From: Bacteroidota bacterium
Lineage (GTDB): Bacteria > Bacteroidota > Bacteroidia > Flavobacteriales > Weeksellaceae
Direction of reading: 5' to 3'
Assembly (NCBI GenBank): GCA_018266955.1
Contig: JAFDZI010000031.1
Span: 1 to 64,000, forward strand
Length of the DNA: 64,000 bases
The first letter of the stretch is position 1; the number at the start of each line of letters is the position of its first letter. The notes beneath the pieces were generated by a model. That model saw nothing but the letters and a program-made list of their open reading frames with translations. It was not told the DNA's origin and searched no databases. This document shows positions 16,388 through 63,427 of this stretch, piece by piece. A program made the position numbers and the translations under genes.

Positions 16388-16525
16388 AAAGTGTTTTTGA
16401 CAAAGGTAGAATTTTAATGATTTGAAAGCAATTTATTTTTTTTCTCATGGTCTGAGTAGGATTTTTAGTAAAAACTAGCATTATTAATAAAAAAAATTAT
16501 AATTTTAGCCCGATAAAAAATTAAC

Positions 16526-16999: not shown

Positions 17000-17027
17000 A
17001 AACACCTCCAATTCGAGGTGTTTTTTT
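17000..17027 (+). terminator. Rho-independent terminator
   Basis: AAACACCTC (17000-17008) pairs with GAGGTGTTT (17015-17023), followed by a T run. Confidence 0.85.
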
Positions 17028-17102
17028 GTTGAGATGAACCTAATTTGTATTTTAATATAGCGCATTTAGTTGTAATTGACTAAAATGTTTTTTAAAATTC
17101 AC

Positions 17103-17110
17103 TAAATTTG
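17103..17110 (+). promoter_or_regulatory. -7 box TAAATTTG before leuS
   Basis: Matches the Bacteroidetes TAnnTTTG -7 consensus 26 bases upstream of the leuS ATG. Confidence 0.45.
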
Positions 17111-17136
17111 TGCCTTTATAAATTTAATTTCATAGA

Positions 17137-26811: not shown

Positions 26812-26886
<75 letters not shown>

Positions 26887-26897
26887 CATCATAGGTC

Positions 26898-32728: not shown

Positions 32729-34225
32729 TTACTTAACCCTCAAAAACTTAAGTTTCTTCATCTGTGTAAGCACCAGCTTAATAGTTTCGTCCAAATGGGA
32801 AGTTTTAAAATACTTGGGTGTGTAGATGAGTTTTTCGTTAAAAATAGACTTTATAATCTGTCTTTTTCCCTCTAGGGTAGCATTCTCATAAAACCCGTTT
32901 ACATTCTTAAAAATTGAAATTCCCTCTTCGAGATGCTTTTGAAAATCTTTGCCCCTGCTTTTGATCTGCTCCAGCTCCATTTTTATTTCGCCCATCTGAA
33001 CATCCGTTTTACGCTTCATCTCGTTATAGGTTTTCACATCAATCACATCATCGAAAAACTTCTGCTCCACCGATTCCAGTCGGGATTGCAGTTTCCCCAA
33101 TTCTCTTTTTAAAGACTGGATATGCACCTCTTTCGTTTCGCCCTCGTCCTGAAAAACTTCTGCCAGGATTTTTTTGTAAAGCATCTTTATTTGATCCTCT
33201 TGTATAGAAAATTCGTCCAACAACTGACCAAACAGCGAATGAACTTCGCCTATCTTATACCGTACCTTGCAAGGCGGATTACAATGGTAATACCAATAGG
33301 AGTTAACTCCGTTATGTCCTTTGGATGCACTTCCCGTTAAAACTCTTCCACAATCAGGACAAAGCAGAAATCCACGAAGAGGAAGTTGTTCCACAATATT
33401 TTCGGTTGCCCTTCTGGGCTTCGGGCATTTACCAGCCATCACTTTTTGCACTTGCTCGAAAGTATTCGTATCGACAATGGCATCGTGCAAACCTTCCACA
33501 ATCATTTCGGGTTCTTTTTTCCATTCGGAAATATAGATTTTACCAGTGTACATTACATTTTTCAAAAGGTGTGTAAAACCGTTTTTGCTCATCTTTAATC
33601 CTTTATTGTAATATTTTTTTCGAATATCTTCCGTAGAATAAATCCCTTTTGCATATTCAGCAAATACTTTTTTTACCAAAACGGATAATTCAGGATGGGG
33701 AGTGAGTGTAGACTTTCCTTCTTCGTTTCTGATTTTTATATATCCGAAAGGAGCAGCACCGCCCATATAGCAGCCTTCTTTTAACCCTTTTCTTAATCCT
33801 TGTCTTGTTCTGAGACTTATGGAATCGTTCTCAATTTCTGGTAAAGTAAGGCTAATCGCCAATAACATTTTAGCACTGCTTTGTGTTAAATCTAATGGCT
33901 GTTCTGTTGAGTTTATTCCAATTTCCCAGTCCTTAAACTGACGAATAACGCTATAGGCTTGCTCTGTATTACGGCTAAATCGATCCCATCGGGTAAACAA
34001 AACCGAATCAACAATTTTTTTATTGGCTTTTATATAGGTCATTAGTTTTTTCCATTCGGGACGGTTTTCAAAATTTTTAGCAGAATAGTCTTCCTCAAAG
34101 TGCCTTAATATATTGTATCCTTTCTGATTACAATAATTTTCTAAAGATTCCTTTTGATGCTTTAAAGAAAAACCTTTATCTGCCTGCTCGTCCGTACTCA
34201 CACGGGTGTAAATAATCACGTTCAT
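32729..34225 (-). CDS. Large serine recombinase
   Basis: A 498-residue site-specific recombinase. The N-terminal resolvase domain has YTRVSTDEQ with the catalytic Ser and WDRFSRN. The recombinase domain contains GGAAPFGY. A zinc-ribbon-like segment (CPDCGRVLTG ... HCNPPCK) precedes a long coiled coil. The ATG at 34225 is chosen because it starts MNVIIYTRVS and overlaps the TGA of a small upstream gene (ATGA); an in-frame start at 34252 also exists. Probably moves the 27-34 kb module. Confidence 0.9.
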   Translation of the reverse strand: MNVIIYTRVSTDEQADKGFSLKHQKESLENYCNQKGYNILRHFEEDYSAKNFENRPEWKKLMTYIKANKKIVDSVLFTRWDRFSRNTEQAYSVIRQFKDWEIGINSTEQPLDLTQSSAKMLLAISLTLPEIENDSISLRTRQGLRKGLKEGCYMGGAAPFGYIKIRNEEGKSTLTPHPELSVLVKKVFAEYAKGIYSTEDIRKKYYNKGLKMSKNGFTHLLKNVMYTGKIYISEWKKEPEMIVEGLHDAIVDTNTFEQVQKVMAGKCPKPRRATENIVEQLPLRGFLLCPDCGRVLTGSASKGHNGVNSYWYYHCNPPCKVRYKIGEVHSLFGQLLDEFSIQEDQIKMLYKKILAEVFQDEGETKEVHIQSLKRELGKLQSRLESVEQKFFDDVIDVKTYNEMKRKTDVQMGEIKMELEQIKSRGKDFQKHLEEGISIFKNVNGFYENATLEGKRQIIKSIFNEKLIYTPKYFKTSHLDETIKLVLTQMKKLKFLRVK

Positions 34226-34371
34226 TTCTTCTTCATTTTTTGTTGATAACATTCATATTCAATCAACGCCCAAACCCGTAATTTTTGGGCAATCCTTGCC
34301 CATTCCATTTCGGAGTATTTCGGCGTATTGTCTTGATTTTTAGGGGCTTTTGGGTTCGATATTGATTTCAT
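34222..34371 (-). CDS. Small protein upstream of the recombinase
   Basis: A 49-residue reading frame (MKSISNPKAPKNQDNTPKYS, then EMEWARIAQKLRVWALIEYE). Its TGA overlaps the recombinase ATG as ATGA, the usual mark of translational coupling. It may be an accessory or directionality protein, but there is no recognisable family. The right-hand 12-bp repeat lies inside its first codons. Confidence 0.5.
   Translation of the reverse strand: MKSISNPKAPKNQDNTPKYSEMEWARIAQKLRVWALIEYECYQQKMKKK
34353..34364 (+). repeat. Right 12-bp direct repeat, candidate att site
   Basis: GGTTCGATATTG, identical to 26991-27002, immediately upstream of the recombinase operon, where large serine recombinases often have their att site. 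Confidence 0.4.
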
Positions 34372-39568: not shown

Positions 39569-42500
39569 ATGGGATTAGATGAAATAAAGAAAGACGAAAT
39601 AAGATTGATAATTAAAGAAAAGTATCAATCTGCAAGTAAATGGTCGGAAACTGATTATATTAATTTAGAAAAAGTTTTTGAAAAAAAACTTAGAAACATC
39701 TATTTAGAAGCTCAAAAAATTTACTACGATGTTATAGAAAATATACAAGCTGATGATTTACGTACGGAAATAACAGCGTTGAAGAAAACATTAAAAAAGA
39801 CTTATAATTCAACTAAATACAAGAGTTTTTTTGATGATTTAACTATTGATGGGTTTACACTAACTGACAAAATTGAAGACTTAAAAGCAGATGATCGCTC
39901 TGTCGAAAGTTTTTTAAATAATGGTGATATTAAAGGAAGTACAAAAGATTTTTATGCCGTGTGTATAGGCAGAAAAGGATGGAAAGATTTTACTTCAGAA
40001 ATAAATAACAATTTAGAAAATGAATATTTAAATATTCCTGTTTCTTCATTTATTGATGATCCCCGACAACTCAAAATAGCTGGAGCTATTATTATAAATC
40101 AGCCGTTCATAGAGAGTATTAAAACACTGCACTTTTCAATGGCAGAATTTTATACGGCGATACAATCAGAAAACGGTCTGTGTCAATTTTATGGAATTGC
40201 GAATCATTTAGATATTGAAAGAAGATACTATAGGAAACTTGAGCAGGCAGTTATTACAAGCCTTAATCAAAAAAGAGAGTATAAAATATGTGGTATTGTT
40301 CACGGCACGGGTGGTTCAGGTAAATCAACAGTTTTAAGGCGTCTGTGTGTAGATATTCAAAAAAATGAAAATGTCACAGTAGTTTGGATAACCGATGTAA
40401 TGCAATTTTTCCAGTATAGTATACCAACTATTAAGCAAGATTTAGAAACTAATAATGAAAAAAAGTATTTAATTGTTATAGAAGATTGGTACAGGATGTT
40501 TCATAACGATTCAGAAATTGGTTCTGAACTCCTTAAGCAATTACATAAACATAATAATGTCAGAATAGTTATAGGCGACAGAACTACTGTTGGTAAGCCC
40601 TATGAATACTATGGGAGTGATTATAACCTTTTGTTATCATCTAATGAGAACAGAGAAATTATAGAACAGATAATTAAAAAACATCCCGTTTGGCAGGAGG
40701 CTTCGGATAGACTATTTGAAAGTTTAAAGAATGATGAGACTACATTATTTCTACTGCTTTTTATTTTAGCCCGAATCAGTCAAGAGAATTCAGGGAATAC
40801 TTCAGATAATCTCTCAGATCCTTTAGTAGTTTTCAAAAATATCATAAAGAGTGATCTAAATTTTATAGCCAAACAGGAGGAAGAATCATATAAGGGATTG
40901 GCGAAAGCACTTTATTACTGGGCTTGCATTTATGTTGAATATAAAGTATTGATTTCTTATGAAACATTTTTAAAAATCGCAGATCATTATAATGGAAAGA
41001 AGACTTCTGAAATAAGAGATTTATTTAGCTTATGGAATGCAGATGAAGATATACTGGACAGATTGAAAATTTACGTCAACAAAAGTGAAAATGGGCAAAT
41101 TCAATTTAATCATGACATTTTAGCTGAAGCTATAAGTAACATAAATATTGATGGATGGAAAAAGTTTGGAACTAAAATTAAACTTGATCTATTGGATGTC
41201 ATTACTGAAAAGGGAGATGATATTTCTGCATCGCAATTTCTATATTTTATGATGTTTAAAGATCAAAATATTTTCTTGTTAAATAGAGAGAAAAAAATAT
41301 TTTATATTGTAAATTTAATTAAAAAAGGCAATAGGCATGCCCTATATCTATCAAGATTACTAGAAATAATCAGGACTGAAAAGGAACAAAATCAGTTTGC
41401 GGAATTGTTATGGGAAAAAGAAATTTATTCTTCTAGTTTCTGGAGGAATTTTTTGTCTAAAACGTCCAACAAAGAATACTGGATAAACAAAATATTTCGT
41501 TTTGAAAATGTTGGGAAAGTTGATCCAGCAACAATAAAAGCAACATTTTATTATAAATATAGTGAACCATTGTTGAAAAATTATTTGGAACATTTTTTTG
41601 AAGAAAACAATTGGAAAAAATATCCAATAAACTTGATTGATATATTTAACTTTTTTCCAGATGAAAATATAGTACAATCTATAATTAAGGAAATTTTGTA
41701 TGATGTAGAATGGAAAAAACGAGAATATTATGTTATCAGTAGGGCTTTGTCTACATGTAATGATGCAATGTTGTCTCAAAGGTTTTCCGATAATATATTA
41801 AAAAATAAAAATTGGCTAGATTATCATCCCTTTCTTATAGCAACAGCCATACGTTATTCATCAATAGAAGTTCAACAAAACTTCATTAAATCTATTTTTA
41901 AGAAAAATTTCGTTGAAATTAATATAGAATTGCTATATGAAAGTTTATATTATTCTGATGATAATTTAAGGCGAAAATTTGCATTAAAATTTCTGCGTGA
42001 TATAAATTGGAAAGAGACTAGCCATGTAATTGTTCCATTAGCAATTAAAGAGCTATCGAACAATGAAAAGCAAAATCTGTTTAAAGGAGTATTAACTTCA
42101 AACAATTGGATGAAAATAAATTATACTATAATAGATTTTTGTCTTAAAGATTGTGAAAATGAAATTATAAAAAATCAATTTTTATTTAAAGTTCTTAATT
42201 CTCCTTTTTCAAAGGAAATATTTGAAACCTTTTTTGTGGCATTAACCCATTCAAAAGATGAAATTTTAAAGAAGGATTGGTGTGATAATTTTCTGATGAA
42301 ATCAGCTTGTCTAAATGATCATTTACAGCGAGGAATTATTTACAAGTCTCTAGAAATATCTAAAGATAAAAAAACAGCATTGTATTATTTAAAGGATTGG
42401 ACGGAGAATGAATTTAGATATAATGTTATGGATAATATGTTTTTAATTTGCCTATCCTGCTTTGAAAATGAAATTAATTTACCCGATGAAGTTAAATTAA

Positions 42501-42952
42501 TAATCAAAACAATAATTGATGATTTTAATAATGATTTCGCCAAAGGTACTTTTTTCTATTATAAAGGGTTAATGAAATTAAGTTTTCACAATGATTTTTA
42601 TTGGAAAAATGAAGTTCAACACATTATCAGAAAATGGAGAAAATATGACAGGCGCATAATTACTAACCTCTTATATAGCCATCTTAGGTATTTTGATGTC
42701 ATTAAACGTTTATGTTTGCATATTCTAATTGGTTATAGAAGAGAAATATGTAAAATCTCTTTTAGTGAATATAGTTCGAAAGAGTATGGAGGTCATGTTA
42801 AAATTGCTTTTGGACACCCCGATTTAAGAACGCAAGCTAAACAAATAGCATTTTTAATATTCTCATCACAGAATATTAAAGCACCTGAATGTATCAAAGA
42901 AATTTCCCAACAAATCGTAGAAAACGACATCTATCCCGAATGGAAAATCTAA
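39569..42952 (+). CDS. Large STAND-type P-loop NTPase
   Basis: A 1127-residue protein. A helical N-terminal region of ~240 residues lacks a recognised effector motif. It is followed by a NACHT/STAND-like NTPase with Walker A GIVHGTGGSGKST (about 243-255) and Walker B YLIVIEDWYR (about 298), then a long C-terminal helical region with repeating W-K-x-Y/N units (NNWKKY, VEWKKREY, INWKETSH, NNWMKIN) that look like degenerate repeats used as a sensor. This layout is typical of anti-phage STAND proteins such as Avs. It has no in-frame TGA across 1127 codons, so it is standard code. Confidence 0.7.
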   Translation: MGLDEIKKDEIRLIIKEKYQSASKWSETDYINLEKVFEKKLRNIYLEAQKIYYDVIENIQADDLRTEITALKKTLKKTYNSTKYKSFFDDLTIDGFTLTDKIEDLKADDRSVESFLNNGDIKGSTKDFYAVCIGRKGWKDFTSEINNNLENEYLNIPVSSFIDDPRQLKIAGAIIINQPFIESIKTLHFSMAEFYTAIQSENGLCQFYGIANHLDIERRYYRKLEQAVITSLNQKREYKICGIVHGTGGSGKSTVLRRLCVDIQKNENVTVVWITDVMQFFQYSIPTIKQDLETNNEKKYLIVIEDWYRMFHNDSEIGSELLKQLHKHNNVRIVIGDRTTVGKPYEYYGSDYNLLLSSNENREIIEQIIKKHPVWQEASDRLFESLKNDETTLFLLLFILARISQENSGNTSDNLSDPLVVFKNIIKSDLNFIAKQEEESYKGLAKALYYWACIYVEYKVLISYETFLKIADHYNGKKTSEIRDLFSLWNADEDILDRLKIYVNKSENGQIQFNHDILAEAISNINIDGWKKFGTKIKLDLLDVITEKGDDISASQFLYFMMFKDQNIFLLNREKKIFYIVNLIKKGNRHALYLSRLLEIIRTEKEQNQFAELLWEKEIYSSSFWRNFLSKTSNKEYWINKIFRFENVGKVDPATIKATFYYKYSEPLLKNYLEHFFEENNWKKYPINLIDIFNFFPDENIVQSIIKEILYDVEWKKREYYVISRALSTCNDAMLSQRFSDNILKNKNWLDYHPFLIATAIRYSSIEVQQNFIKSIFKKNFVEINIELLYESLYYSDDNLRRKFALKFLRDINWKETSHVIVPLAIKELSNNEKQNLFKGVLTSNNWMKINYTIIDFCLKDCENEIIKNQFLFKVLNSPFSKEIFETFFVALTHSKDEILKKDWCDNFLMKSACLNDHLQRGIIYKSLEISKDKKTALYYLKDWTENEFRYNVMDNMFLICLSCFENEINLPDEVKLIIKTIIDDFNNDFAKGTFFYYKGLMKLSFHNDFYWKNEVQHIIRKWRKYDRRIITNLLYSHLRYFDVIKRLCLHILIGYRREICKISFSEYSSKEYGGHVKIAFGHPDLRTQAKQIAFLIFSSQNIKAPECIKEISQQIVENDIYPEWKI

Positions 42953-43781: not shown

Positions 43782-44036
43782 ATGCTCGCAGACCAAATGA
43801 TTTCGGTAAGTGATTTAAGATACAAAACCAGATCGGTCATTGATTCTCTAAATACCTGAGCCAAATATGTTTTGCTCAATAACAAACTTGAGGCAGTAAT
43901 TCTTACACCTACAGAATATGAATATTTTAAACAGTTGCAAAAAGCAGAAGAATGGCGCTTAGATATTGAAGAGGCTAAGAAAAACAGTCCTGTGTATAAT
44001 AATGCAGAAGATTTATTGTCTGAACTTTTAGCCTAA
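43782..44036 (+). CDS. Phd/YefM-type antitoxin with one in-frame UGA (Gly)
   Basis: An 84-residue antitoxin if the TGA at 43857-43859 is read as an amino acid. N terminus MISVSDLRYKTRSVIDSLNT, then UGA, then AKYVLLNNKLEAVILTPTEY. In Phd antitoxins the equivalent position is normally glycine (LxxGxxVxLxxN). The reading frame is otherwise intact up to TAA, and the downstream toxin begins with the very next base, so the pair is organised as a working module. Start could be 43782 or 43797. In a standard-code host it would be cut off after 25 residues. Confidence 0.7.
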
Positions 44037-44300
44037 ATGAAATTTCAAAGGACTTCCAAGTTCAAAAGACAGTTTAAAAAATATCATAATCAGCCAAAGG
44101 TTTTGGAAAAATTTTCAGAATGTATCTCCCAATTATTATCTTGAAACCTTTCTCCCAAACGAAAAAATCATAAACTTCAATGAGCTTTTAAAGATTTTCG
44201 GGAACTTCATCTCGCTCCAGATATCCTACTGATCTATTATATAGAAGGTGATATTTGCTTTTTATCACAAATCGGAAGTCATTCTGATTTGTTTGGATAA
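44037..44300 (+). CDS. YafQ/RelE-type toxin with two in-frame UGA (Gly)
   Basis: An 87-residue mRNA interferase-type toxin if two TGAs are decoded (44142-44144 and 44181-44183). The second gives HKLQ-Gly-AFKDF, exactly where YafQ proteins have the conserved Gly of the DHxLxG motif. The family signature continues with ELHLAPDILLIY and IGSHSDLF. CGA at 44160 falls in the S-P-K-x-K-N-H segment, where the family has an aromatic residue, consistent with Trp; CGG at 44199 follows F in DFxELH, where Arg or Trp are both plausible. Directly after the antitoxin stop. Confidence 0.72.
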
Positions 44301-47979: not shown

Positions 47980-48569
47980 TAGTTTAAAGAATATCTTATT
48001 TCTCTATTAATTGCATTAAAATGAACAATTCCTCCATTGTTTTTTGTAAGCAGTCTAAAAATTTCATACGCTTTCAAAATAGCAAATTCCCATTCTTTTG
48101 TTGTTCTAATTTTAACCTCGAAATTCTCGGTCATCTCTTTTATAATTCTCAGCGTCGTTCTAGAAACATTAGAAGTATTTGCAAAGAATTTTTTTCTCTT
48201 CGCCTCATTAAAAATAACCATTGAAACAGCTTCTTCAGTAATGATAGCTCTTGCTCCATCTTCAATTCTATCCAACAATTCATTGCTTTTTCTTTTTCTT
48301 TTCATCATGGCTCTTGCACACGGTGACCAACCTAAAAGTGTTGCAAAGGTATAATGAAAAATATCATGATAACGATAAAAATCATTTATATAAGAGTTAT
48401 CGTTAATCACATCTCCAAGTTGTCTTTCATTGTTGAGAACAACTCTTAATTCATTTTTTACATCATTTCCAACTTCAGTAAAAGATAAAGAGAATTCCCT
48501 TGGAAATTGTTCTTGTGGCATAAATCCTTCATCAAAGAATTGCGTGGAATTAATTTTATTTTGTATCAT
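47979..48569 (-). CDS. MazG-like nucleotide pyrophosphohydrolase
   Basis: A 196-residue all-helical protein. The segment FTEVGNDVKNELRVVLNNER (about 30) and INDFYRYHDIFHYTFATLLG (about 62) look like the acidic helices of the MazG/all-alpha NTP pyrophosphohydrolase superfamily. Would remove pyrophosphate from a (possibly modified) nucleoside triphosphate. Overlaps the gene upstream by 14 bases. Confidence 0.55.
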   Translation of the reverse strand: MIQNKINSTQFFDEGFMPQEQFPREFSLSFTEVGNDVKNELRVVLNNERQLGDVINDNSYINDFYRYHDIFHYTFATLLGWSPCARAMMKRKRKSNELLDRIEDGARAIITEEAVSMVIFNEAKRKKFFANTSNVSRTTLRIIKEMTENFEVKIRTTKEWEFAILKAYEIFRLLTKNNGGIVHFNAINREIRYSLN

Positions 48570-49341
48570 TTTGTTTGGTGTTTTCTTTTAAAATAGTATT
48601 AACTCTTTCTGTAACAATGCTATCTATATTAGATTTTTTAATAATACTGTCAACAGATTTTTCAATTCTTTTTTCTTTCAAACCAGCATAATATCCATCA
48701 TTGAATTTGGATGAATCAGTAAATAATTTTAGGAACATCGCAATACCTAAAGTCATAAGTATTCCCAAAGCCCAAAAAACATTTTTCAGATGAGACTCAT
48801 TTGTTTTTATTCTTTCAAGCAAAACATTTGGAGAAGCAAGTTTTCCACTTAAAGCACTTATGTTGTCAGCAGAAATTTCCATTTGACCTTTATGCTTTCC
48901 ATTGTAAGGATCAGAAGAACTTGTTAAGTTACTAAACCAAATCATAAAATATGGGCTTCCTTTATCCAAGATAATCGTAGCAGGGCCTGCATTGTAAACT
49001 GAGAAAATAATTTTTCCTTTGAATCCAGGATCAACATGAAATCCGGAAACATTAATTAGTCCTTTTATCTTTTGACTGAATTTTATAGAAATAAAAGCAA
49101 TTATATTATCTGGTATTGTTACAAACTCATCTGTAATCAAAAGAGCAAATTGTCCTGGTTTTATTACTACTTGAGTATTTTTCTCATCTAATACTTCTTT
49201 TTTTCCTTTTTTAGAATCTGTTAGATATGCTTCGCCACCTAATGATAATTCATAAGCAACATTGTTTATTCTTTTTGAATCGAATTTGTCAATACAATTT
49301 GGAAGAATAGTTTCTAGTTCTCTTGTTCCTAAGTATGCCAT
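48556..49341 (-). CDS. dCTP deaminase/dUTPase-fold protein with membrane anchor
   Basis: A 261-residue protein. Residues ~1-150 resemble dCTP deaminase (VAYELSLG, PGQFALLITDEFVTIP, INVSGFHVDPGFKGKI), but the catalytic R-S-S segment is replaced by SIKFSQKIKG, so standard deaminase activity is doubtful. A helix at about 189-208 (FWALGILMTLGIAMFLKLF) anchors it in the membrane, and a charged coiled tail follows. The anchor is unusual. In the same operon as thymidylate-synthase-like and MazG-like genes. Confidence 0.65.
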   Translation of the reverse strand: MAYLGTRELETILPNCIDKFDSKRINNVAYELSLGGEAYLTDSKKGKKEVLDEKNTQVVIKPGQFALLITDEFVTIPDNIIAFISIKFSQKIKGLINVSGFHVDPGFKGKIIFSVYNAGPATIILDKGSPYFMIWFSNLTSSSDPYNGKHKGQMEISADNISALSGKLASPNVLLERIKTNESHLKNVFWALGILMTLGIAMFLKLFTDSSKFNDGYYAGLKEKRIEKSVDSIIKKSNIDSIVTERVNTILKENTKQNDTK

Positions 49342-49387
49342 ATTTCAGTATATCAGTTTGTTAATGACGTTATAAAATTACAATTTT

Positions 49388-50434
49388 TTATTTATTGAAT
49401 GTAGTTGTTAATAATTCCTTACCAGTGATAATTCTATCATTAATACCCCATTTCGGCGGAAACCAGTAATTGATGGGTTTTGCGTTAGTTTTGTACACTT
49501 GTTTTATTCTCACTCTATCACTCGTTCCCTTAATTTCAGGATGCATTACTCTTGCATATTTATCAGTTTCACAAAAAAGATTTTGACAATCAATAAGCTG
49601 TAGTCTTCTGCCCCAAAGATTTTTAAAAGATAATCCAAGTCTTTCAAATTCTTTTTCTTGCCTATCTGTCATTAATTTAATAATTTCCACATTACTAAGA
49701 CCAGCGGTATCACTAAAACATTTACTAATGCCACCAATAGCACCTGGTCCCGGAACTACAAATTCTGATTCTGAAAAATCTATAATTGTTGAATAATTAA
49801 TATCGATTAACAACTGGTAAGCCAAAAAATCCCCTAGTCCGGGAAAGCTTTTGATGAGTTCAAATGCTTGCTGCATCTTTTTGGCTTCCATAAGTCTTTC
49901 AACGGTATTGTTTTCCAATATATATTCAATCAGTTTTAAATGATTTGAATGTTTTCGGATATGACCAAAACGAGACTTGCAAGATGGCATTATATAAGCT
50001 GCAGAATATATAGTTTTTTTATTTGTAAGAACCTTATTTAATATTTTGTCGTAAAGTTTAAAATCAAAATCTTCATATACGAGGTGACCTAGTTCAGAGG
50101 TCAGTAATTCCCATGTTTCTATTTTATTAAATAATTTAAAAAGTAATATTCTAAAAAGAATCTCTTTTGGTTCGGAAGGTAGATCATCATTATAAATTAC
50201 ATTTCTTATAAGATATTGGCTAACTCTATCCGCAGCACGATAGGTATTTGTAAATTTATATTTACTTATGACAGGATCTTTAGTCCAAGGGAATTCTTTA
50301 CCATTGATTCTATTAAAGAACGTTTCTTGTCTCAATACCGCAAATTTCCAATAACTATCATAAACTTCTGTTACTTTTGCAGGTGCTAAAGGCTTATATA
50401 TTGTAAAACCAGATGTTTTTTTATCCTTGTTCAT
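49388..50434 (-). CDS. Thymine-hypermodification-like enzyme (HMUDK/aGPT-PPlase family)
   Basis: A 348-residue protein with a helix-hairpin-helix centre (IKSFPGLGDFLAYQLLIDIN, about 196-215) and conserved VVPGPGAIGGISKCF. It resembles the helical family annotated as 5-hydroxymethyl-dU DNA kinase helical domain or alpha-glutamyl/putrescinyl-thymine pyrophosphorylase, known from phage thymine hypermodification. I infer the family from memory of its motifs; the location beside a thymidylate-synthase-like gene supports it. Overlaps that gene by 14 bases. Confidence 0.55.
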   Translation of the reverse strand: MNKDKKTSGFTIYKPLAPAKVTEVYDSYWKFAVLRQETFFNRINGKEFPWTKDPVISKYKFTNTYRAADRVSQYLIRNVIYNDDLPSEPKEILFRILLFKLFNKIETWELLTSELGHLVYEDFDFKLYDKILNKVLTNKKTIYSAAYIMPSCKSRFGHIRKHSNHLKLIEYILENNTVERLMEAKKMQQAFELIKSFPGLGDFLAYQLLIDINYSTIIDFSESEFVVPGPGAIGGISKCFSDTAGLSNVEIIKLMTDRQEKEFERLGLSFKNLWGRRLQLIDCQNLFCETDKYARVMHPEIKGTSDRVRIKQVYKTNAKPINYWFPPKWGINDRIITGKELLTTTFNK

Positions 50435-52871: not shown

Positions 52872-53723
52872 TTAGTACATATTTACTTTCTCCCCGTCAA
52901 ACAGCCACCAATCCTCAAAAACATTTTGTTTAATCTCCTCTAAAGATTTAAATAAGAAGTGAAATTTCGCTTCTGTAAAACGTTCGTCTTCAAGAAGTCT
53001 CTTCATCGCCATTTGCTTATACACCTCGAGTTCGAAGATACAGAGAATACGGCTTCCATAATCTAGCCCAAACATTCTGCTCGGTTGCCCTACTGACAAT
53101 GCCCTCAAATGATGAAATAAAGACTTATGAACACGACTTGTATCATCTCCGTTATACATTTCAATGGCATACAACTCTTTTCTATTCGGTGTTTGAAGCA
53201 TACAAAGTGCATCAGCAATCAAATAATCGTTTTCAGAGATTTGAATGAACGATTCCGCTTTGTAACCCTTCTTCTTTCCCGTAGAAACCTTATCAAAATA
53301 GGTCAAGAATAGTAGCATTTCACAATCATCAATTTTAGAAATTCCTTTGTGTAAAGCGATTTGCACATTAATCGTGTTCATTCTATGGAAGTAATCCTTT
53401 TGATAAAATTGACCTTCATTTTTCGGAAACCTGACAACCTCTTCTCTCAAATAATCTTTAACAATTTCAGCACCATGAGCTTTTAAAAAATGTACATTTT
53501 CGAGTTTCCCTATTGCAGGATGAACTCCGAATGCAATAGAACCCACTAACGGATCTTTCCGAAGTCTGAGTTCTGCAATTTGCTTGTTGAGATTCGCTCT
53601 GTCAGACATAATTCCGAGACCGAGCAACTGCCCTGCTGTTAAATATTTGTAACGAGCCAAAGCTAAAAGGATTTTTTCCTGTGAGGGAGAAAGTGTTTGA
53701 AAGAATAATCTTTTAGTAACCAT
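52872..53723 (-). CDS. Replication-relaxation family protein
   Basis: A 283-residue protein with an N-terminal winged helix (QEKILLALARYKYLTAGQLL) and a C-terminal domain with IADALCML and ELYAIEMYNGDD, resembling the D...ExD/E pattern of plasmid replication-relaxation/mobilisation proteins. Lies next to the TraG-like ATPase on the same strand, fitting a mobilisation or replication role. Confidence 0.7.
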   Translation of the reverse strand: MVTKRLFFQTLSPSQEKILLALARYKYLTAGQLLGLGIMSDRANLNKQIAELRLRKDPLVGSIAFGVHPAIGKLENVHFLKAHGAEIVKDYLREEVVRFPKNEGQFYQKDYFHRMNTINVQIALHKGISKIDDCEMLLFLTYFDKVSTGKKKGYKAESFIQISENDYLIADALCMLQTPNRKELYAIEMYNGDDTSRVHKSLFHHLRALSVGQPSRMFGLDYGSRILCIFELEVYKQMAMKRLLEDERFTEAKFHFLFKSLEEIKQNVFEDWWLFDGEKVNMY

Positions 53724-53788: not shown

Positions 53789-55699
53789 TTAGAGATGAAA
53801 CTTAGGCTTAATACTTCCGCTGGACTCTGTGGAATTTTGAGGTACGGATTCAGAATTTTCTTTTGCTGGAAGAATTGTAGCTTCGGAATCCGATGCCGGA
53901 TTTACAGTTTCATTAGTTGTATCTGCTGAAGTCGATTTGGCTTTTGAAGGAATCAAAGTTGGCGCATGAACTGGATTTGATGTAGGTTCATGCGGCGGAT
54001 TCTGACTTTTATTTTGAAACTGCGTTTGTGTTTGAATTGGATTTACATTGATGATGTCTCTGTAAATTTCCGATTCAGACAACAAATAGGCTTTTAGTTT
54101 TTTCAGTTCTTCTTTGTTACAAAAGTATCTTTTCTGCTGTCTAATTAGAAAATCGGGACTTTTAATTTTTATGGCCGGAAAATGATCGTACTTTAAGTAG
54201 AACTCATAAGGTAACAAACTCTGCATTGCTGAATAAGAAACTCCAAAATCCCCTGCCAATTCTTTAAGTGCAGGCAAGCCGTTGATTCCTGCTAATTTAA
54301 CAGCTGAGTTATTCAAAACTGAATTCTTTAATGATAATGGGATTTGACCGACACTTTGTGTTCCAACAATCAAACGCAATTTGTACTTCCTGGCCTCAGA
54401 AAATATGGTTTGAATACTTCCGCTTTCTGTCGTGAAATTGTGAAATTCATCGATAAACAGATAACAGGGCTTTCTTGAATGTTCGGATTCGAACGCCCTC
54501 TGAAATACAATGCTCAGAATGGTTGCGGAAACAAATCTCCCGAGTGCTCTGCTCGTATCTTCTCCCAATTTTCCTTTGGATAAATTAAACAGGATTATCC
54601 TGCCTTCCTGCATTCCTTTCTTTAGGTCGATATTGCTTTTTCCGTTCATCATGTGGTAGAACATCATATTGTTTTGGAGGTGTTGCAATCTTGTATAGAT
54701 TGCCAGTTTGGTAGGAGCATATTTTTTACTAAGGAATGCTGTTTCAAAAAACTGGCGGTAGACCTGAAATGAAGATTTTTTGCCCAATTCCACCCATTTT
54801 GCATTTTGGGTGTCATCCATAAATATTTGCAAGTCGGATAGCCCACATCCTCCTCTTTCAAGCAAAACTGCTAAACACGGTTTCAGCAGCGCTTCCATTT
54901 GAAGCGACATTCCTGCTTCGGGAATTAATTCCGAAAACGCTTTGGCGAATTGCTGGGACATCACATCAATTAAAAACGGCTCGGAGACTCTCCGCCAAAA
55001 TGGGTTGATGCAGGGAATTTTTTCATTTTCCAATTGCGGATCGATGTACCAAACACGGTCGGGCTTTTGAAGATTGATACGGAATCCTAATAAGCTCTCG
55101 GATAGGTCTCCATGAGGATCCAAAAGAATTATTGAGTGTTGCTGTTTCAATTGGGATTGATGCTGAATTTGGTAAGCAATCGCTTTCATAAATTCCGTCT
55201 TTCCGGAACCTGTCCTGCCGCTAATAAAGCAATGCCTGTCTAAAGCGGAAACGGGAAATGGGACAGGCTTTGGAGCAAAAAATAATGCGTGTAGCGAAGG
55301 TAGACAAAGTGAAAGAAGTTTTTGATAGTCGTGTTCATCATCGCTGGTAAAAGAAGATAAAATTTTCGGGTGTTTCAATAAAAGATTCCAATATTCCAAA
55401 GCAGGCGAAACGCATACTGCCCTCTCCAATTTTTCTTTGCTTGTCGCTTTCTTGGTTCTCATTTCTTCAAATTTCTTGAAGGTCAGAAATCGTTTTTGAA
55501 GTTCTTTGCGGTAATGAATTGAATTTCTATCCAGTCGGGAGAGGTTTTTATCGATTGCTTTTATTCGTTCTGAAATTAAAGCATCCCGACCCGAAGGATG
55601 TCCGGCAAGTAAATAACTTCCTGCAAGTAGATAAGGTTCTTGGTTTCTGATCTTCCATAGAAAGGAAGTTTTATTCCAGAATTGAATTGTTGAATTCAT
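53789..55699 (-). CDS. TraG/VirD4-like conjugative coupling ATPase
   Basis: A 636-residue P-loop ATPase with Walker A ISGRTGSGKTEFMKA (about 160) and Walker B CYLFIDEFHNF (about 412), then GTQSVGQIP, as in DUF87/VirD4/TraG coupling proteins. The N-terminal part (about 1-140) has no obvious membrane helices; the last ~80 residues are a Pro/Ser/Thr-rich disordered tail. It probably feeds plasmid DNA to a type IV secretion channel encoded elsewhere. Standard code throughout. Confidence 0.8.
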   Translation of the reverse strand: MNSTIQFWNKTSFLWKIRNQEPYLLAGSYLLAGHPSGRDALISERIKAIDKNLSRLDRNSIHYRKELQKRFLTFKKFEEMRTKKATSKEKLERAVCVSPALEYWNLLLKHPKILSSFTSDDEHDYQKLLSLCLPSLHALFFAPKPVPFPVSALDRHCFISGRTGSGKTEFMKAIAYQIQHQSQLKQQHSIILLDPHGDLSESLLGFRINLQKPDRVWYIDPQLENEKIPCINPFWRRVSEPFLIDVMSQQFAKAFSELIPEAGMSLQMEALLKPCLAVLLERGGCGLSDLQIFMDDTQNAKWVELGKKSSFQVYRQFFETAFLSKKYAPTKLAIYTRLQHLQNNMMFYHMMNGKSNIDLKKGMQEGRIILFNLSKGKLGEDTSRALGRFVSATILSIVFQRAFESEHSRKPCYLFIDEFHNFTTESGSIQTIFSEARKYKLRLIVGTQSVGQIPLSLKNSVLNNSAVKLAGINGLPALKELAGDFGVSYSAMQSLLPYEFYLKYDHFPAIKIKSPDFLIRQQKRYFCNKEELKKLKAYLLSESEIYRDIINVNPIQTQTQFQNKSQNPPHEPTSNPVHAPTLIPSKAKSTSADTTNETVNPASDSEATILPAKENSESVPQNSTESSGSIKPKFHL

Positions 55700-56742: not shown

Positions 56743-56976
56743 ATGGAAAACAAAATCAACAAAACCGTCAATCTAGACTTGACGACTATCGACAGTAACA
56801 TCTTCGCCATTTTTGGAGCGTTCTCCAGACAGGCAAGACGTGAGAAGTGGACGCAACAAGAAATTGATGCCGTCCTCGAAGAAGCCAAAAGCGGAGATTA
56901 TGATCATGCGATTGCTACCATCTGCGAGTATTGTGACCCTGAAGACGATTCTAACTCTGAAAACGAAGAAGACTAA
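56743..56976 (+). CDS. Small plasmid protein, function unknown
   Basis: A 77-residue acidic protein (FAIFGAFSRQARREKWTQQE near the middle, ending in a Glu/Asp tail). Its TAA overlaps the ATG of the next gene (TAATG). It begins a compact plus-strand run of small genes. Confidence 0.7.
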   Translation: MENKINKTVNLDLTTIDSNIFAIFGAFSRQARREKWTQQEIDAVLEEAKSGDYDHAIATICEYCDPEDDSNSENEED

Positions 56977-57581
56977 TGGGAACAAGAAATTTAACCGTGG
57001 TGGTACAAAACCAAGAAGTGAAAGTTGCTCAATATGGGCAGTATGACGGATTCCCCGATTCCCTTGGAGTAAAATTATTAAAATTCTTTAGCAATCCTGA
57101 GAACACCGAAAAATTAAAAGAAATCCTTCCGAAAGTACGTCTTTGGAATGAAAAAGACCAAAAGCTACAGGACGAATTTCTGGAATCAATCGGTTGTACC
57201 AACGGAATACTCAACGACAAGCAAAAGGAACAATTCAAAATGAAGTATCCTTTTCGCTATCGTGAACGCTACGGAAAATTAACCGAAGGGCAAATCTTGG
57301 AAATATTGCTGGAGTTTCATCATCTTGATGAAATCGCAACCATCGATGCTTACGATTTTGCTTCCGACAGTCTGTTCTGTGAATGGGCGTATGTGATTGA
57401 CTACGATAAAAATGCTTTTGAAGTGTACAAAGGTCTCAACACCTCGGGAATTTCAGAAGAAGACCGCTTCTTTCCGCTTTATGACGGAGAAAACGATTAT
57501 TATCCTGTCAAAATCATTGCCTCATTTCCTTTGGATCAACTTCCCGATGAAAACGAATTTCTTTTTCAATGCTCAACGTAG
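56976..57581 (+). CDS. Conserved mobile-element protein (MGTRNLT family)
   Basis: A 201-residue protein starting MGTRNLTVVVQNQEVKVAQY. Proteins with this opening and a following QYDGFPDSLG are widespread on phages and plasmids, without known function. Arg is encoded only by CGT/CGC here. Ends in TAG. Confidence 0.75.
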   Translation: MGTRNLTVVVQNQEVKVAQYGQYDGFPDSLGVKLLKFFSNPENTEKLKEILPKVRLWNEKDQKLQDEFLESIGCTNGILNDKQKEQFKMKYPFRYRERYGKLTEGQILEILLEFHHLDEIATIDAYDFASDSLFCEWAYVIDYDKNAFEVYKGLNTSGISEEDRFFPLYDGENDYYPVKIIASFPLDQLPDENEFLFQCST

Positions 57582-57660: not shown

Positions 57661-58245
57661 ATGAACAAAAACAAAAACCGCCTACTGGTAATGTGCTTTA
57701 TGAAAATGCTTCAGCAAAGAATCGAAAGAGACAAAGTGGAAACCCTAAGTCCTATATTCGGTAACATCTTAAGTAAAGAAGAGCTTCAAAACATTTTGAA
57801 GTGGCTGTACTTGGATAAAGTGCCTGAACACTACGATTTGAAAACGATGGACAGTCAGGATTTGCTTGAAGCCATCGGAGATGACATTCATATCCTTTCG
57901 TATTCCATAGAAAAATGGAAAAAGGAACTGGAAGAGAAAATCACGCCACAGAAAGTCTATGAGGTACTTTGCCAGCTCCAACTCGAAACCCATTATCTGA
58001 TGACCAAAATTTTGGCAGATTGGGACGAGTACGACCACAGCAACTTCAAGGCACTCTGCCGAAAGGCGGGAACTCCTCAACCCTTATTTGCTGTATTTGA
58101 ATCTTCTGTACTAGAAGAGGACAAATATATTTCTGTTCCTCTTTCTAAATATTATGCTACCGAGTGGGAAGCAACATCTAAAAAATCACTTCTCATTTCG
58201 GAAGAACAGTTTGAGGAACATCAGCTCCAGATCCTAAGCCTGTAA
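57661..58245 (+). CDS. Plasmid protein A of a paralogous pair
   Basis: A 194-residue soluble protein. Residues ~35-90 (KEELQNILKWLYLDKVPEHY ... LLEAIGDDIHILSYSIEKW) match residues of the protein encoded at 59477 (KELIEII ... LLQLIGDDFKIISYVMSRW), so the two are paralogues. Unknown function. Confidence 0.7.
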   Translation: MNKNKNRLLVMCFMKMLQQRIERDKVETLSPIFGNILSKEELQNILKWLYLDKVPEHYDLKTMDSQDLLEAIGDDIHILSYSIEKWKKELEEKITPQKVYEVLCQLQLETHYLMTKILADWDEYDHSNFKALCRKAGTPQPLFAVFESSVLEEDKYISVPLSKYYATEWEATSKKSLLISEEQFEEHQLQILSL

Positions 58246-58275: not shown

Positions 58276-58710
58276 ATGAAACAATCAATCTTAGAATTTT
58301 ATTCTAATCTGGACAAAGCCAGAGACAGAGCTTTATGGCTGGAGTTTGAGTACAGAAATATTCCCAAGCATTTTATGGTATTTGATGGGCCTGAAAACAA
58401 TTTCGCCGTTGCCGATTTAGAAACGGCAGAAGAAATGGAAATGACGCATCATTACTACTCTCTTCCTGAAAATTATCAACATCTTTCTTACGGAGATTTG
58501 AAAGGAATTTCGGGCGACCCAGAGATGTTAGGACACTGGGAAAATATCCTTGGAAAGTTCTCGGTAATGGAAGGCGAATTACTTCGCTTTATCCTGAAAT
58601 ATCAGGTTCCTCTAGATAAAATTATTCGTTACGAACTTGGGTGTAGAGGATTTGACCATAACAATCAATGGATTGGATTTAATGAATCTGAAAAACTATG
58701 GCAACAATAA
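58276..58710 (+). CDS. Uncharacterised plasmid protein
   Basis: A 144-residue acidic protein containing MVFDGPENNFAVADLETAEE and a C-terminal CRGFDHNNQWIGF. Small acidic plasmid proteins near a leading region are often anti-restriction proteins, but I cannot show that here. Confidence 0.65.
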   Translation: MKQSILEFYSNLDKARDRALWLEFEYRNIPKHFMVFDGPENNFAVADLETAEEMEMTHHYYSLPENYQHLSYGDLKGISGDPEMLGHWENILGKFSVMEGELLRFILKYQVPLDKIIRYELGCRGFDHNNQWIGFNESEKLWQQ

Positions 58711-58715: not shown

Positions 58716-58943
58716 ATGGATACAGAAAACAATAAGACAACTCTGGAGGAAGTCTATGTGATTGCTCTTGCCGAAAATGACGGGGAATTTGATTGGGTTT
58801 ATATTCTTCCAAAACCCTATTATCTTACCGAAACAGAAGCCTTGGAAATCAGAAATTCATTAATCGAAAATGAAGAATTTATTACCGAAAGTAACTGTAT
58901 CGTAAAAAAACTATACAGAGTAAAACCCATACAAGAAGAATAA
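58716..58943 (+). CDS. Small plasmid protein B1 (paralogue of 59171 gene)
   Basis: A 75-residue protein; ATG at 58716, five bases after the previous stop, is preferred over the ATG at 58698, which would overlap. The P-K-P-Y-Y-L-T ... E-I-R-N-S-L-I-E-N pattern recurs as P-K-P-F-Y-Q-T ... N-I-R-R-T-L-I-E-N in the gene at 59171. Confidence 0.65.
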   Translation: MDTENNKTTLEEVYVIALAENDGEFDWVYILPKPYYLTETEALEIRNSLIENEEFITESNCIVKKLYRVKPIQEE

Positions 58944-58961: not shown

Positions 58962-59174
58962 ATGGAAAACAAAAAATGGGTAAAGCAAGTGATGATTATT
59001 GATGATAAACTGCATCAAAGCTATCTGCAAACTTTTGTGGAAGAACCATTGAACTTTGAGGAGTTCGTCAATTTTGAATTGGGAAACCTCTTTGATGAAG
59101 ACAGGAAGATTGAACAGATTATCCCGAATGAAAATGCCACTCAATTTGTCATCATTTATTCTATAAAGCTATGA
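58962..59174 (+). CDS. Small plasmid protein, function unknown
   Basis: A 70-residue acidic protein. It ends in TGA TGA TAA; under UGA=Gly it would gain only two glycines. Its stop overlaps the ATG at 59171 (ATGA). Confidence 0.6.
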   Translation: MENKKWVKQVMIIDDKLHQSYLQTFVEEPLNFEEFVNFELGNLFDEDRKIEQIIPNENATQFVIIYSIKL

Positions 59175-59476: not shown

Positions 59477-60079
59477 ATGAACGAAAACAGAACGGCACTC
59501 TTGAAAATATTCTCAGCAGTGCTAAAGGACAGAGTAAAATCTGAACCTCAGTATCAATCCATCAGTACGGAAATGGTCAAACATTTTTCCCGAAAAGAAT
59601 TGATTGAAATCATTACCCACAACTTCGAGGGCGAAGTTCCATCGGAATTTAACCTCGTGGAAATGGAAAATAATGAACTTTTGCAATTGATTGGAGATGA
59701 TTTCAAAATCATTTCTTATGTGATGAGCCGTTGGAGCAAGGAAGTTTCACTACTTCCAACCCTCCAAGAATGGATGCATTCTAAAGTTCATTCATCTCCT
59801 GAAAAGGAAATAGAAGAAAACTTGGAATCAAATTCATCAGAAACTTCATCAGAAAATTTGGAGAATCCTCCAACAAATGAAATGATTTCTGAACATCCAG
59901 ATTCTACTTCTGAAAATTCTGATAAAACCAATTCGGAATCTCCTAAACCTTCGGATGTATCATCTGAAGTTAAAAAATTTGAAGAGAAACTGAATTTCAA
60001 TCCTGATTCTAAACCTGCTTCAGAAAAACCGCATTTCGGTAGGAAGCAGGAGGACAAGAAAACTGAAAAAAGCAAGTAA
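59477..60079 (+). CDS. Plasmid protein A2 with acidic Ser/Pro-rich tail
   Basis: A 200-residue protein. The N-terminal ~95 residues are paralogous to the protein at 57661; the C-terminal half is disordered, rich in Ser, Glu and Pro (ENLESNSSETSSENLENPP) and ends in a Lys-rich patch. Uses CGA for Arg at a position where its paralogue has Glu/Lys, consistent with the standard code. Preceded by the flavobacterial-style intergenic phrase tctaacctctaatatctaaa. Confidence 0.68.
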   Translation: MNENRTALLKIFSAVLKDRVKSEPQYQSISTEMVKHFSRKELIEIITHNFEGEVPSEFNLVEMENNELLQLIGDDFKIISYVMSRWSKEVSLLPTLQEWMHSKVHSSPEKEIEENLESNSSETSSENLENPPTNEMISEHPDSTSENSDKTNSESPKPSDVSSEVKKFEEKLNFNPDSKPASEKPHFGRKQEDKKTEKSK

Positions 60080-60289: not shown

Positions 60290-61081
60290 ATGAAAACCCC
60301 GATTACGTATTACGGTGGGAAACAGAATTTAGTAAAAGAACTTCTTTGATTAATTCCTCCTCATAAAATCTATGTAGAACCTTATTTTTGAGGCGGAGCA
60401 CTGTTTCGGGCTAAAGAGCCTTCTTCTTCTGAAATTATCAATGACACCAACATGAATGTGGTTAATTTCTACGAAGTTTTGAAGAAAAACTACAAAGCAC
60501 TGCACGAAAAAATCGAAGCCACTCTTCACAGTAGGGAAACTTACAAAAAAGCGCTTTTCATTTACGAAACTCCCCGGCTTTTTGCGGACAATCCTGTAAT
60601 AAGAGCACGAGCTTTCTATGTATCCTGCAATCAATGATTTTGCAGTCGTGTTGGGAGTTGGTGATATGATAAGGGAAAAAGATGTGCTTCGGTTTTTCAG
60701 AATAAAATAGAAAACTTTAAAGAAGAAATGAGCATTCGTCTTTCTTACACGCAAATCGAACAAAACTCGGCTCATCTTGTCATTCAGTCGAGGGATCATG
60801 AACATGCCTTCTTTTACTGTGATCCTCCTTATATCGGGACGAATCAATGACATTATGGAGGTTATTACGAAGACGATTTCATCAGAGACCTCACGGTATT
60901 ATCACAAATCAAGTGAAAGTTTTTATTGAGCAATTTTCCATCTAAAATACTCGATAGGTTTGTAAAGGAGCATCAATGGTATGTAAAAACCTTTGACCAA
61001 CCTTTGTCAGCCTCTCACAACAGCAAGAAGAACTTAAACAAAAGAAAAACGGAAGTGTTGGTGGCGAATTATCCGATATAA
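60290..61081 (+). CDS. DNA adenine methylase (Dam type), UGA read as Gly
   Basis: A 263-residue D12-class methylase if six in-frame UGAs are decoded (60347, 60389, 60635, 60662, 60848, 60914). Motif I is TYYGGKQNLV, the catalytic motif CDPPYIG. The UGAs fall in KELL-G-LIPPH, EPYF-G-GGALF, CNQ-G-FCS, GSW-G-YDK, TNQ-G-HYGGY and QIK-G-KFLL; at least five of these are strongly conserved glycines. CGG at 60407 and 60575 and CGA at 60608 occur where relatives have Trp (VFWAKEP, PWLF, RAWAF). No other frame disruption and a TAA stop. An ATG at 60227 would add 21 residues. Confidence 0.85.
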
Positions 61082-61153: not shown

Positions 61154-61177
61154 TTTACATTAAAAAACAAAAATGAA

Positions 61178-61324
61178 ATGAACACCTCAAAACCAAAATA
61201 CAACAATCAAAGAAAAAATGTCGTGATGCGTAAGATCAAACCAAGAATGAAACAGAGAGTTTTCAAAAACGAAGAAATCCCCATCCATAAAATCAGAAAA
61301 GATTACGAAAAATTTAAAGTATGA
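61178..61324 (+). CDS. Small basic protein
   Basis: A 48-residue Lys/Arg-rich protein (RKNVVMRKIKPRMKQRVF) with stop TGA at 61322 sharing bases with an ATG at 61321 (ATGA). If UGA were Gly it would continue for 13 codons to TAA. The ATG at 61173 is in another frame and would run through UGAs into the methylase downstream; I consider that reading less likely. Confidence 0.5.
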   Translation: MNTSKPKYNNQRKNVVMRKIKPRMKQRVFKNEEIPIHKIRKDYEKFKV

Positions 61325-62345
61325 CCGAAGCTTAAAGCATGATTACCCTCCTCCAAATAATCTAAAAGTATTCTGAGCCTTTGTTGGTGGTGGCGGTTCT
61401 ACAATGGGATACAAACTCGCAGGATTTCAACATTTGGGTGGTGTAGAAATAGATGGCAGAATGGCAAAAATTTACCAAACCAACCATTCCCCTGAACATT
61501 TTTATCATGAAGACATCAGAGATTTTAACCAAAGAACTGATTTACCAAAAGAACTCTACGAATTAGATATTTTGGATGGCTCTCCTCCTTGCAGTGCCTT
61601 CTCGATGTCCTGAAAACGTGAGGAATACCGGGGAAGAGAAAAAGTATTTAAAGAATGACAGAAAAAACAAATTTTGGATGAACTTGTGTTTATATTCTGT
61701 GATATGGTAGAAAAGCTTATGCCCAAAGTTGTTGTAATGGAAAATGTTCCGGGACTCGTTGCCGGAAGAGCAAAAAAATATGCCATTGAAGTCTATGAGA
61801 GACTTAATTTGCTATGATATCAAGTCCAAATCTTCAGACTCAATTCAGCTACAATGGGTGTTCCCCAAGCTCGTGAACGTATTTTCTTTATTGCAAGAAA
61901 AAAGAGCTTGGAGCTCCCCCAATTAATTTTGGACTTCAATGAATCCCCTGTATATTTTGGAACAATTGCCGACAGAAATTCTACCACCCATCCTCCGCTC
62001 CGACCTTCCATTGAAAAAAGACGACCGTTTGTAGAATACGGAGATCAGAATTTAAAGTTTGCCGATGCAAAATACAGAAATTTAAATACCTTCAATGCGT
62101 TCTTCAGTACCTATATTTTGTACGATGATATTGTTGCTCCTACATTGACTTCAAGTGGAGCATGAGTATATTACCCCGAAAAACGCAATCTTAATGATAC
62201 CGAATATATTCGTATGAGTAGTTTTCCAAACGATTTTGATTTTTGCAACATATCAACCCGTTATGTTTGCGGAATGAGCGTTCCTCCATTGATGACCGCT
62301 AGAATTGCAAATGAAATAAGAAAACAATGGTTTTCAATAATTTAG
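61321..62345 (+). CDS. DNA cytosine methylase (Dcm type), UGA read as Gly, frameshifted start
   Basis: A C5-methylase of ~340 residues if five UGAs are decoded (61374, 61611, 61656, 61815, 62163). Motif I is FVGGGGSTMGYKLAGF, PC motif DGSPPCSAFSMS, ENV motif VVMENVPGLV, then GVPQARERIFFI. UGAs give KVF-G-AF, SMS-G-KRE, FKE-G-QKK, NLL-G-YQV and SGA-G-VYY; SMSGKRE and FKEGQ are conserved glycines. CGG at 61629 lies in EEY-x-G, where Trp is typical. ATG at 61321 opens MTEA, but one base is missing near 61333 to reach the conserved frame. Ends in TAG. Confidence 0.75.
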
Positions 62346-62905: not shown

Positions 62906-63427
62906 ATGGAAATTTCAAAATCAGAGGCAGAAAGACTGCTGGGTGTAAGTTCCACCACCTTGTATAATCGGGCAAACAAAATGAATATCAAATTCATCAA
63001 TAAAGTAGACTCCAAAGGAAAGAGCAGTTACCTTGCCCAATCCGATTTGGAGAAAATGGCAGAAGCAATGGGTAAGACATTGAAAACCGAATCCGCCCCT
63101 GAAAAAGAAAATCCGAAAACGGAAAGCAGAGGAGCAGAGGAGTGAGAAGCCCAAGAATTTGTACAGGAAAAATTTATGCTTCAACTCAAAATCAAGGAAC
63201 AGGAAGAGGAGATCAAGTCCAACAACCAAATCATTGAATTTTATAAAGAAAATAATTCGCAATTGCTGATGAACCAACAGGAAGCTAAAAATCAAATCAC
63301 TACTATGTACTGAGAAATGCTTGGAATTTCGAAAAAAGCCACGACCTACTATATTATCTCTATTGCCGTATCGGTTGTGTTACTCCTGTTTGTTGTTCTT
63401 GTTGCCACAGGAAACCTGAAATTTTAA
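62906..63427 (+). CDS. HTH, coiled-coil, membrane-tail protein (Par-like), UGA read as Gly
   Basis: A 173-residue protein if UGAs at 63143 and 63311 are decoded. N-terminal HTH (ISKSEAERLLGVSSTTLYN, about 3-60), central coiled coil (LQLKIKEQEEEIKSNNQ) and a C-terminal membrane helix (YYIISIAVSVVLLLFVVLVA). The layout recalls the single-protein plasmid partition protein Par of staphylococcal pSK1 (HTH plus coiled coil). UGAs fall at AEE-G-EAQEF and TMY-G-EMLG. CGG near 62968 (LYN-x-ANK) could be Trp or Arg. ATG at 62906 begins the HTH; other in-frame starts lie upstream. Confidence 0.65.

Follow-up and report, generated by a model that had tools for sequence, protein, structure and literature searches.

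Integrated elements of Flavobacteriales that carry genes in two genetic codes

A 64,000-nucleotide stretch of Flavobacteriales DNA (positions 1 to 64,000 of contig JAFDZI010000031.1, assembly GCA_018266955.1, from a member of the Weeksellaceae; hereafter the window, or G000) contains part of an integrated island on which genes written in two genetic codes stand side by side. Some, including a block of genes named S1 to S6 here, use the standard code; others, including genes for Dam- and Dcm-type DNA methyltransferases, appear to use UGA for glycine and CGA and CGG (together CGR) for tryptophan. The same partition was found in at least 13 related elements, that of the window included. We favour, with a probability of about 0.7, the explanation that these elements shuttle between two hosts, one gene set being translated in Flavobacteriales and the other in an Absconditabacterium.

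Meaning of CGA, CGG and UGA in the recoded genes

The preliminary description of this DNA had assigned CGA and CGG codons of several genes to tryptophan positions. Each codon that it named is in frame and belongs to a gene with in-frame TGA as well. The recoded genes of the window are the following:

43785..44033 (+): YefM/Phd-type antitoxin, one TGA, as in its homologs in two related elements (G265 and G081, see below)
44037..44297 (+): YafQ-type mRNA interferase of the toxin-antitoxin pair; TGA at 44142 and 44181, CGA at 44160, CGG at 44199
60290..61078 (+): Dam-type adenine methyltransferase; TGA at 60347, 60389, 60635, 60662, 60848 and 60914, CGG at 60407 and 60575, CGA at 60608
61173..62342 (+): Dcm-type cytosine methyltransferase; eight TGA, CGA at 61326, 62001 and 62022, CGG at 61629
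62906..63424 (+): helix-turn-helix (HTH)/excisionase-like protein with a C-terminal hydrophobic segment; CGG at 62969, TGA at 63143 and 63311

When TGA was read as glycine, Pfam matches were obtained to the D12-class and C-5 methyltransferases, the YafQ toxin and the Phd/YefM antitoxin. The alignment columns were scored against standard-coded homologs, 63 for Dam, four for Dcm and six for YafQ. In Dam, the CGA at 60608 falls in a column that is tryptophan in all 62 readable homologs, arginine never being aligned with it. The column of CGG 60407 holds phenylalanine in 54 homologs, tryptophan in nine (the three nearest among them) and arginine in none, while that of CGG 60575 is variable, with tryptophan in two of the three nearest homologs and arginine in five of the 63. 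The tryptophan columns proposed for these three codons are thus seen in all, or in the nearest, standard-coded homologs. Five of the six TGA codons of Dam fall in glycine columns, those at 60389 and 60914 being glycine in 63 of 63 homologs; the only non-glycine place is 60347, in a proline column.

In Dcm, the CGG at 61629, likewise proposed as tryptophan, is tryptophan in all four homologs, and so is a CGA that had been overlooked (61326; three of three homologs with an aligned residue). Glycine occupies the places of TGA 61611, 61656 and 61815 in all aligned homologs. In the HTH gene, a relative in another element (L116) has TGG at the place of CGG 62969. Three CGR codons that had been left as ambiguous resolve in different ways: 62001 falls in a tryptophan column (two of two homologs with an aligned residue), 62022 in a leucine/proline column (P/L/L), neither tryptophan nor arginine, and 44199, in YafQ, in an arginine column (six of six standard-coded homologs, the G081 copy having cysteine). 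The column of the other YafQ codon, CGA 44160, had been described as aromatic; tryptophan (TGG) in the G081 relative agrees with this, but the six homologs are mixed (N, Y, Y, N, H, W). TGA 44181 of the same gene is glycine in six of six. When the chromosomal genes of the window were compared with a congener, their CGA/CGG codons fell in arginine columns 21 times, in lysine columns five times and never in tryptophan columns, so that the proposed contrast between the recoded and the remaining genes was indeed seen. Judged from these alignments, the second reassignment, of CGA/CGG to tryptophan in genes with UGA as glycine, is real, with one clear exception (44199).

A family of elements in two codes

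TraG, a TraG/TrwB-like coupling ATPase, and the recoded Dam served as queries in a search for relatives. Elements were found in genomes G081, G166, G255, G265, G327 (two, a and b) and G339 (two, a and b), and four more (L113, L115, L116 and L117) in metagenome-assembled genomes (MAGs) of Flavobacterium/Flavobacteriales, which with the window brings the total to at least 13. The carriers are Chryseobacterium, Flavobacterium and other Flavobacteriales, C. limigenitum SUR2 (G339) and C. candidae JC507 (G166) among them. Dam is recoded in 13 of 13 elements, and Dcm, HTH, the replication initiator Rep and YefM/YafQ wherever they are present. S1, S2, S3, S4 and S6 are standard in every element (55 genes with no TGA and 319 GGN codons), as opposed to 181 TGA and 407 GGN in the 41 genes of the recoded core (Fisher P ∼1e-39). 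In the recoded genes of the 13 elements, CGA falls in tryptophan columns 50 times and in arginine columns twice, and CGG 45 times and never, respectively; a predominance of arginine, which would have spoken against the reassignment, was therefore not seen. The corresponding values for the standard genes of the same elements are 2 and 17 for CGA, and 0 and 14 for CGG. Several elements also use TGA as the genuine stop of S3, S5 or S6. Internal TAA/TAG is nearly absent from the recoded matches: the 41 genes contain two such codons, of which one precedes the start of Rep in G327b.

Two types of element were distinguished. In type I (G000, G255, G265, G327a, G327b, G339a and L116), TraG and RelaxP, a replication-relaxation-like protein, have no TGA, and the CGR codons of TraG fall in arginine columns. 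In type II (G081, G166, G339b, L113, L115 and L117), both genes have TGA at glycine and CGR at tryptophan positions, and a recoded serine recombinase with 7–17 TGA comes after Dam (in G339b, after Dam and Dcm), replacing the HTH-Rep end of type I. The G081 element has both a standard-coded and a recoded recombinase, ∼20 kb apart and flanking core genes. In-frame TGA is present in Rep in every type I element, and Rep should therefore not be made in Flavobacteriales.

Other recoded genes were noted around these elements. In the Flavobacterium MAG element L116, Dcm is followed by another recoded Dam-type methyltransferase, which is only distantly related to the first (L116:10134-10892; six TGA, three CGR). 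Near the recoded element of C. limigenitum (L096, within G339:C34 22974-28640) lie a Cys-rich, secreted-looking protein of 1216 residues that contains a TSP1-type repeat and whose gene has 28 in-frame TGA (L096:7974-11621, −) and a large secreted-looking protein with an S74 chaperone domain and five TGA (L096:11625-13640, −); these may be cargo from the recoded host. A distant relative from another family of the order (L337; G101:C6 98001-118000) has TGA in TraG (11886-13058; four), HTH (16062-16562; one) and Rep (17021-17986; four), and the two-code family may accordingly be broader.

Selection, co-divergence and origin

Under the altered code, the ratio of nonsynonymous to synonymous substitution rates (dN/dS) of the recoded genes was ∼0.04–0.25, mostly ∼0.1; for the S genes under the standard code it was ∼0.06–0.3, mostly 0.1–0.2. 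Between G265 and G339a, dS values of 0.32 (Dam), 0.37 (Rep), 0.48 (Dcm) and 0.23 (HTH) were obtained for the recoded set, and values in a similar range for the S genes (S2, 0.39; S3, 0.33; S6, 0.33; S1, 0.60). Distances between elements in the S genes correlated with those in the recoded genes, in type I (Mantel rho 0.77, P = 0.0006) and in type II (rho 0.91, P = 0.005). Low dN/dS together with correlated distances in both sets indicates that selection acted on both dialects during the evolution of the element as one unit; by these estimates, the two gene sets are under purifying selection and co-diverging.

The recoded Dams form one clade (100/100) nested in the standard-coded Dams of Flavobacteriales and their phages. 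Elements that are standard-coded throughout, unlike those of the family, but have homologous genes, with S genes adjoining Dam, occur in the same order: Dam, S2/S6, S3 and TraG in G117, G551, G612, G456 and G480, and Dam, S2 and TraG in G101:C10. They look like the parental kind of the two-code family. The parsimonious history would be that a standard Flavobacteriales element moved into a recoded host and that the genes it used in that host gained UGA and CGR, while those used in Flavobacteriales stayed standard. The element appears to have passed repeatedly through both translation systems, with no single arrival from a donor.

UGA as glycine combined with CGA/CGG as tryptophan is the code of the Absconditabacteria, and CGG as tryptophan alone is reported for some Gracilibacteria (Shulgina and Eddy 2021, PMC8629427). 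The preliminary description had recognized this combination and had named the donor from it. The recognition of the code agrees with the published one, but in view of 13 co-diverging mixed-code elements the genes are not a simple gift from a named donor. The likeness extends from both reassignments to the arginine codons of the recoded genes, which are AGA/AGG and CGY; the difference is that the code is here limited to certain genes of an element in standard-coded Flavobacteriales with standard neighbours. Campbell's work of 2013 is reportedly a source for the genetic code of the Absconditabacteria (SR1).

Translation in the carriers

The carriers keep release factor 2 (RF2; prfB). ARAGORN found no suitable anticodon for a suppressor tRNA in nine element regions, and a pattern search for UCA-anticodon tRNAs in seven carrier genomes gave only chance-level matches, none of which was a tRNA by ARAGORN. 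The tRNAs read in the window's genome have ordinary Gly, Trp and Arg anticodons. Since RF2 is present and a UCA-anticodon tRNA was not found, the carrier is a standard-code cell. Near two tRNA-Val genes of the window's genome lies a tRNA-like gene (G000:C2:59909-59986; L274:1148-1226) that scores above the Rfam cut-off and whose anticodon, TTA, would read the stop codon UAA.

A shuttle between two hosts, and the alternatives

According to the reading that we favour, the element in Flavobacteriales would sit in the chromosome (here at tRNA-His), where S1–S6, the type I TraG and, in the window, also RelaxP and a serine recombinase are predicted to be translatable. The recoded genes would be unreadable there because RF2 would stop translation at UGA and CGR would be read as arginine. 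The second host would read UGA as glycine and CGA/CGG as tryptophan, and we infer that an Absconditabacterium that lives on the Flavobacteriales cell is the most likely candidate. Readable in it would be the Rep3 initiator, HTH, the toxin-antitoxin pair, Dam and Dcm and, in type II, also TraG, RelaxP and the element's own serine recombinase, so that the recoded half might provide plasmid replication, maintenance and methylation, the putative role of the two methyltransferases; S1–S6 would presumably act in the Flavobacteriales host. Transfer between the hosts, in whichever direction and by whichever route, might proceed via the coupling ATPase plus further parts. Gene expression would then be partitioned by the genetic code, the code deciding which half is alive in which host as the element shuttles to ultra-small bacteria on Flavobacteriales, a view that we consider fairly probable. 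In river mats, the coverage of Absconditabacteria correlated moderately with that of Bacteroidetes, which is consistent with such a partnership (PMC8406219).

Several results weigh against this reading. No Absconditabacteria copy was found among the matches listed, which were filled by Bacteroidota, in a genome-contig scan with one Gly-rich recoded Dam pattern, nor did IMG/VR searches with the recoded Dam, TraG, YafQ, recombinase and a G339b cargo protein give an Absconditabacteria locus. A plasmid search with the element's TraG yielded no close match among the listed plasmids. The cultured or enriched Absconditicoccaceae live on Gammaproteobacteria (PMC13059738). At the codon level, the arginine column of YafQ 44199 is joined by a CGG of the type I RelaxP that falls in a mixed W/R/L/M column. 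In addition, single-sequence patterns of Dcm had no match in IMG/VR, and our literature searches found no report of such two-code elements.

The alternative that survives best, which we nevertheless regard as unlikely, is a one-way spill-over in which elements of recoded bacteria occasionally land in Flavobacteriales, their recoded genes being dead there, and in which the S-block was acquired from Flavobacteriales elements and hitchhikes. Intact recoded genes with dN/dS ∼0.1 are what a recent arrival out of a recoded host should show, and for Dam, S2, S3 and TraG there are standard-coded relatives that have no recoding. This, however, leaves unexplained an S-block without TGA, with CGR as arginine and with TGA stops, that is under purifying selection and co-diverges with the recoded genes over 13 elements; moreover, every copy found sits in Flavobacteriales.

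It is less likely still that the elements do shuttle but that the recoded partner is a Gracilibacterium with CGG as tryptophan, or an undescribed lineage with both changes. The CGG reassignment is predicted for some Gracilibacteria (PMC8629427), Gracilibacteria phages match Bacteroidetes spacers (PMC10746230), and an Absconditabacteria copy was not seen in the scans made. The occurrence of CGA, too, in tryptophan columns (the 50 to 2 ratio given above) is nevertheless a feature reported for Absconditabacteria rather than Gracilibacteria.

Somewhat more doubtful again is a conditional recoding within Flavobacteriales, with suppressor tRNAs of the element or host allowing the recoded genes to be expressed there at some stage. 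All copies were found in this order, and phages are known with gene-class-specific recoding and suppressor tRNAs (PMC10746230, PMC13059738). The tRNA searches described above and the presence of RF2 argue against it, and reading CGA/CGG as tryptophan would compete with arginine decoding by the host, corrupting both host and S-block proteins.

An artefact, whether a chimeric assembly, contamination by an Absconditabacteria contig of the kind reported in other assemblies (PMC8629427) or an over-generous reading of decayed standard pseudogenes, is very improbable: although a single window could not exclude a chimera or contamination, the recoded genes are flanked by standard genes on one contig and the same arrangement recurs in independent genomes (C. 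limigenitum SUR2 and C. candidae JC507 included) and on a 3.46 Mb contig, while decayed pseudogenes were rejected on account of TGA at glycine, CGR at tryptophan, dN/dS ∼0.1 and the near absence of TAA/TAG.

A different genetic code is regarded as a barrier to gene exchange; the present elements appear not only to overcome that barrier but to make use of it, with gene sets for different hosts kept in separate dialects on a single DNA molecule. This has a bearing on biocontainment, code differences serving as a firewall in synthetic biology. So far, the hosts of Absconditabacteria have been settled for no more than a few lineages, cultured or enriched. Under the two-host reading, the carriers of the element (Chryseobacterium, Flavobacterium and relatives) are candidate hosts, which would offer a sequence-based route to naming the partners of uncultured Absconditabacteria; as the carriers include named strains, the prediction is directly testable.

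Comparison with known mobile elements

The phages of Gracilibacteria/Absconditabacteria (Liu et al. 2023, PMC10746230) are alike in being mobile genomes that apparently meet both recoded and standard bacteria. They differ in being compatible with both codes, without in-frame TGA, while the present elements combine a standard gene set with one that is committed to the recoded host. Code-switching phages (Lak-like and other large phages) also confine recoding to one gene class of the element; here, however, no suppressor tRNA was seen, a sense reassignment (CGR to tryptophan) is involved as well, the element is not a phage, and two hosts are proposed in place of timing within one host. With Rep_3 (RepB-type) plasmids the elements share a Rep initiator with Rep3_N and Rep3_C domains, but here Rep is recoded and the element was found integrated. 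Like integrative mobilizable/conjugative elements, the island has a defined site (tRNA-His), an empty counterpart in a congener (G002) and a site-specific recombinase.

The island and its other genes

The window is part of a 91 kb contig in a 2.45 Mb genome. Synteny with the congener G002 extends exactly to the 3′-terminal base of tRNA-His (26,887) and is regained at ∼75,377 of the contig, beyond the window, the site being empty in G002; the island is thus inserted at the 3′-end of tRNA-His and measures ∼48.5 kb. It contains a standard-coded serine recombinase, candidate defence genes, the core RelaxP-TraG-S1-S6-Dam-Dcm-HTH and, just past the window, the Rep3 initiator, in which both domains were recognized (Rep3_N and Rep3_C; PF01051, 1.4e-36; PF21205, 7e-15). 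Of a mating apparatus, the coupling ATPase and the replication-relaxation-like protein were the only parts identified, a full type IV secretion set not being found. Neither a capsid nor a terminase set was identified in the element core. The standard-coded features are as follows:

26813..26887 (+): tRNA-His, left end of the island, with the synteny break at its 3′-end
32732..34252 (−): large serine recombinase (Pfam Resolvase and Recombinase), candidate integrase for the Flavobacteriales host
52875..53723 (−): RelaxP, replication-relaxation-like, without TGA in the window; six of the sister elements have a recoded form (1–5 TGA)
53792..55699 (−): TraG/TrwB-like coupling ATPase, standard here, with CGR in Arg columns; six of the sister elements have a recoded form (3–10 TGA, CGR in Trp columns)
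56976..57578 (+): S1, function unassigned; no TGA in any copy, CGR columns Trp 0, Arg 4
57661..58242 (+): S2, function unassigned, paralog of S6
58276..58707 (+): S3, function unassigned; TGA stop in two elements
58716..58940 (+): S4, small protein
58977..59171 (+): S5, small protein; stop is TGA in six of nine elements
59477..60076 (+): S6, function unassigned; CGR columns Arg in eight of eight

A standard-coded homolog of the window recombinase, 51% identical, adjoins the G081 element. Elsewhere on the island, a STAND-type NTPase of 1127 residues (39569-42952, +) had no match in the defence library, and a standard-coded pair (29543-32541, −) matches the candidate defence system PDC-M38 A/B. 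A dCTP-deaminase-like protein lies beside a protein with a 5-hydroxymethyldeoxyuridine (5-hmdU) DNA kinase helical domain (48559-50434, −), a pair that suggests modified-base metabolism on the island.
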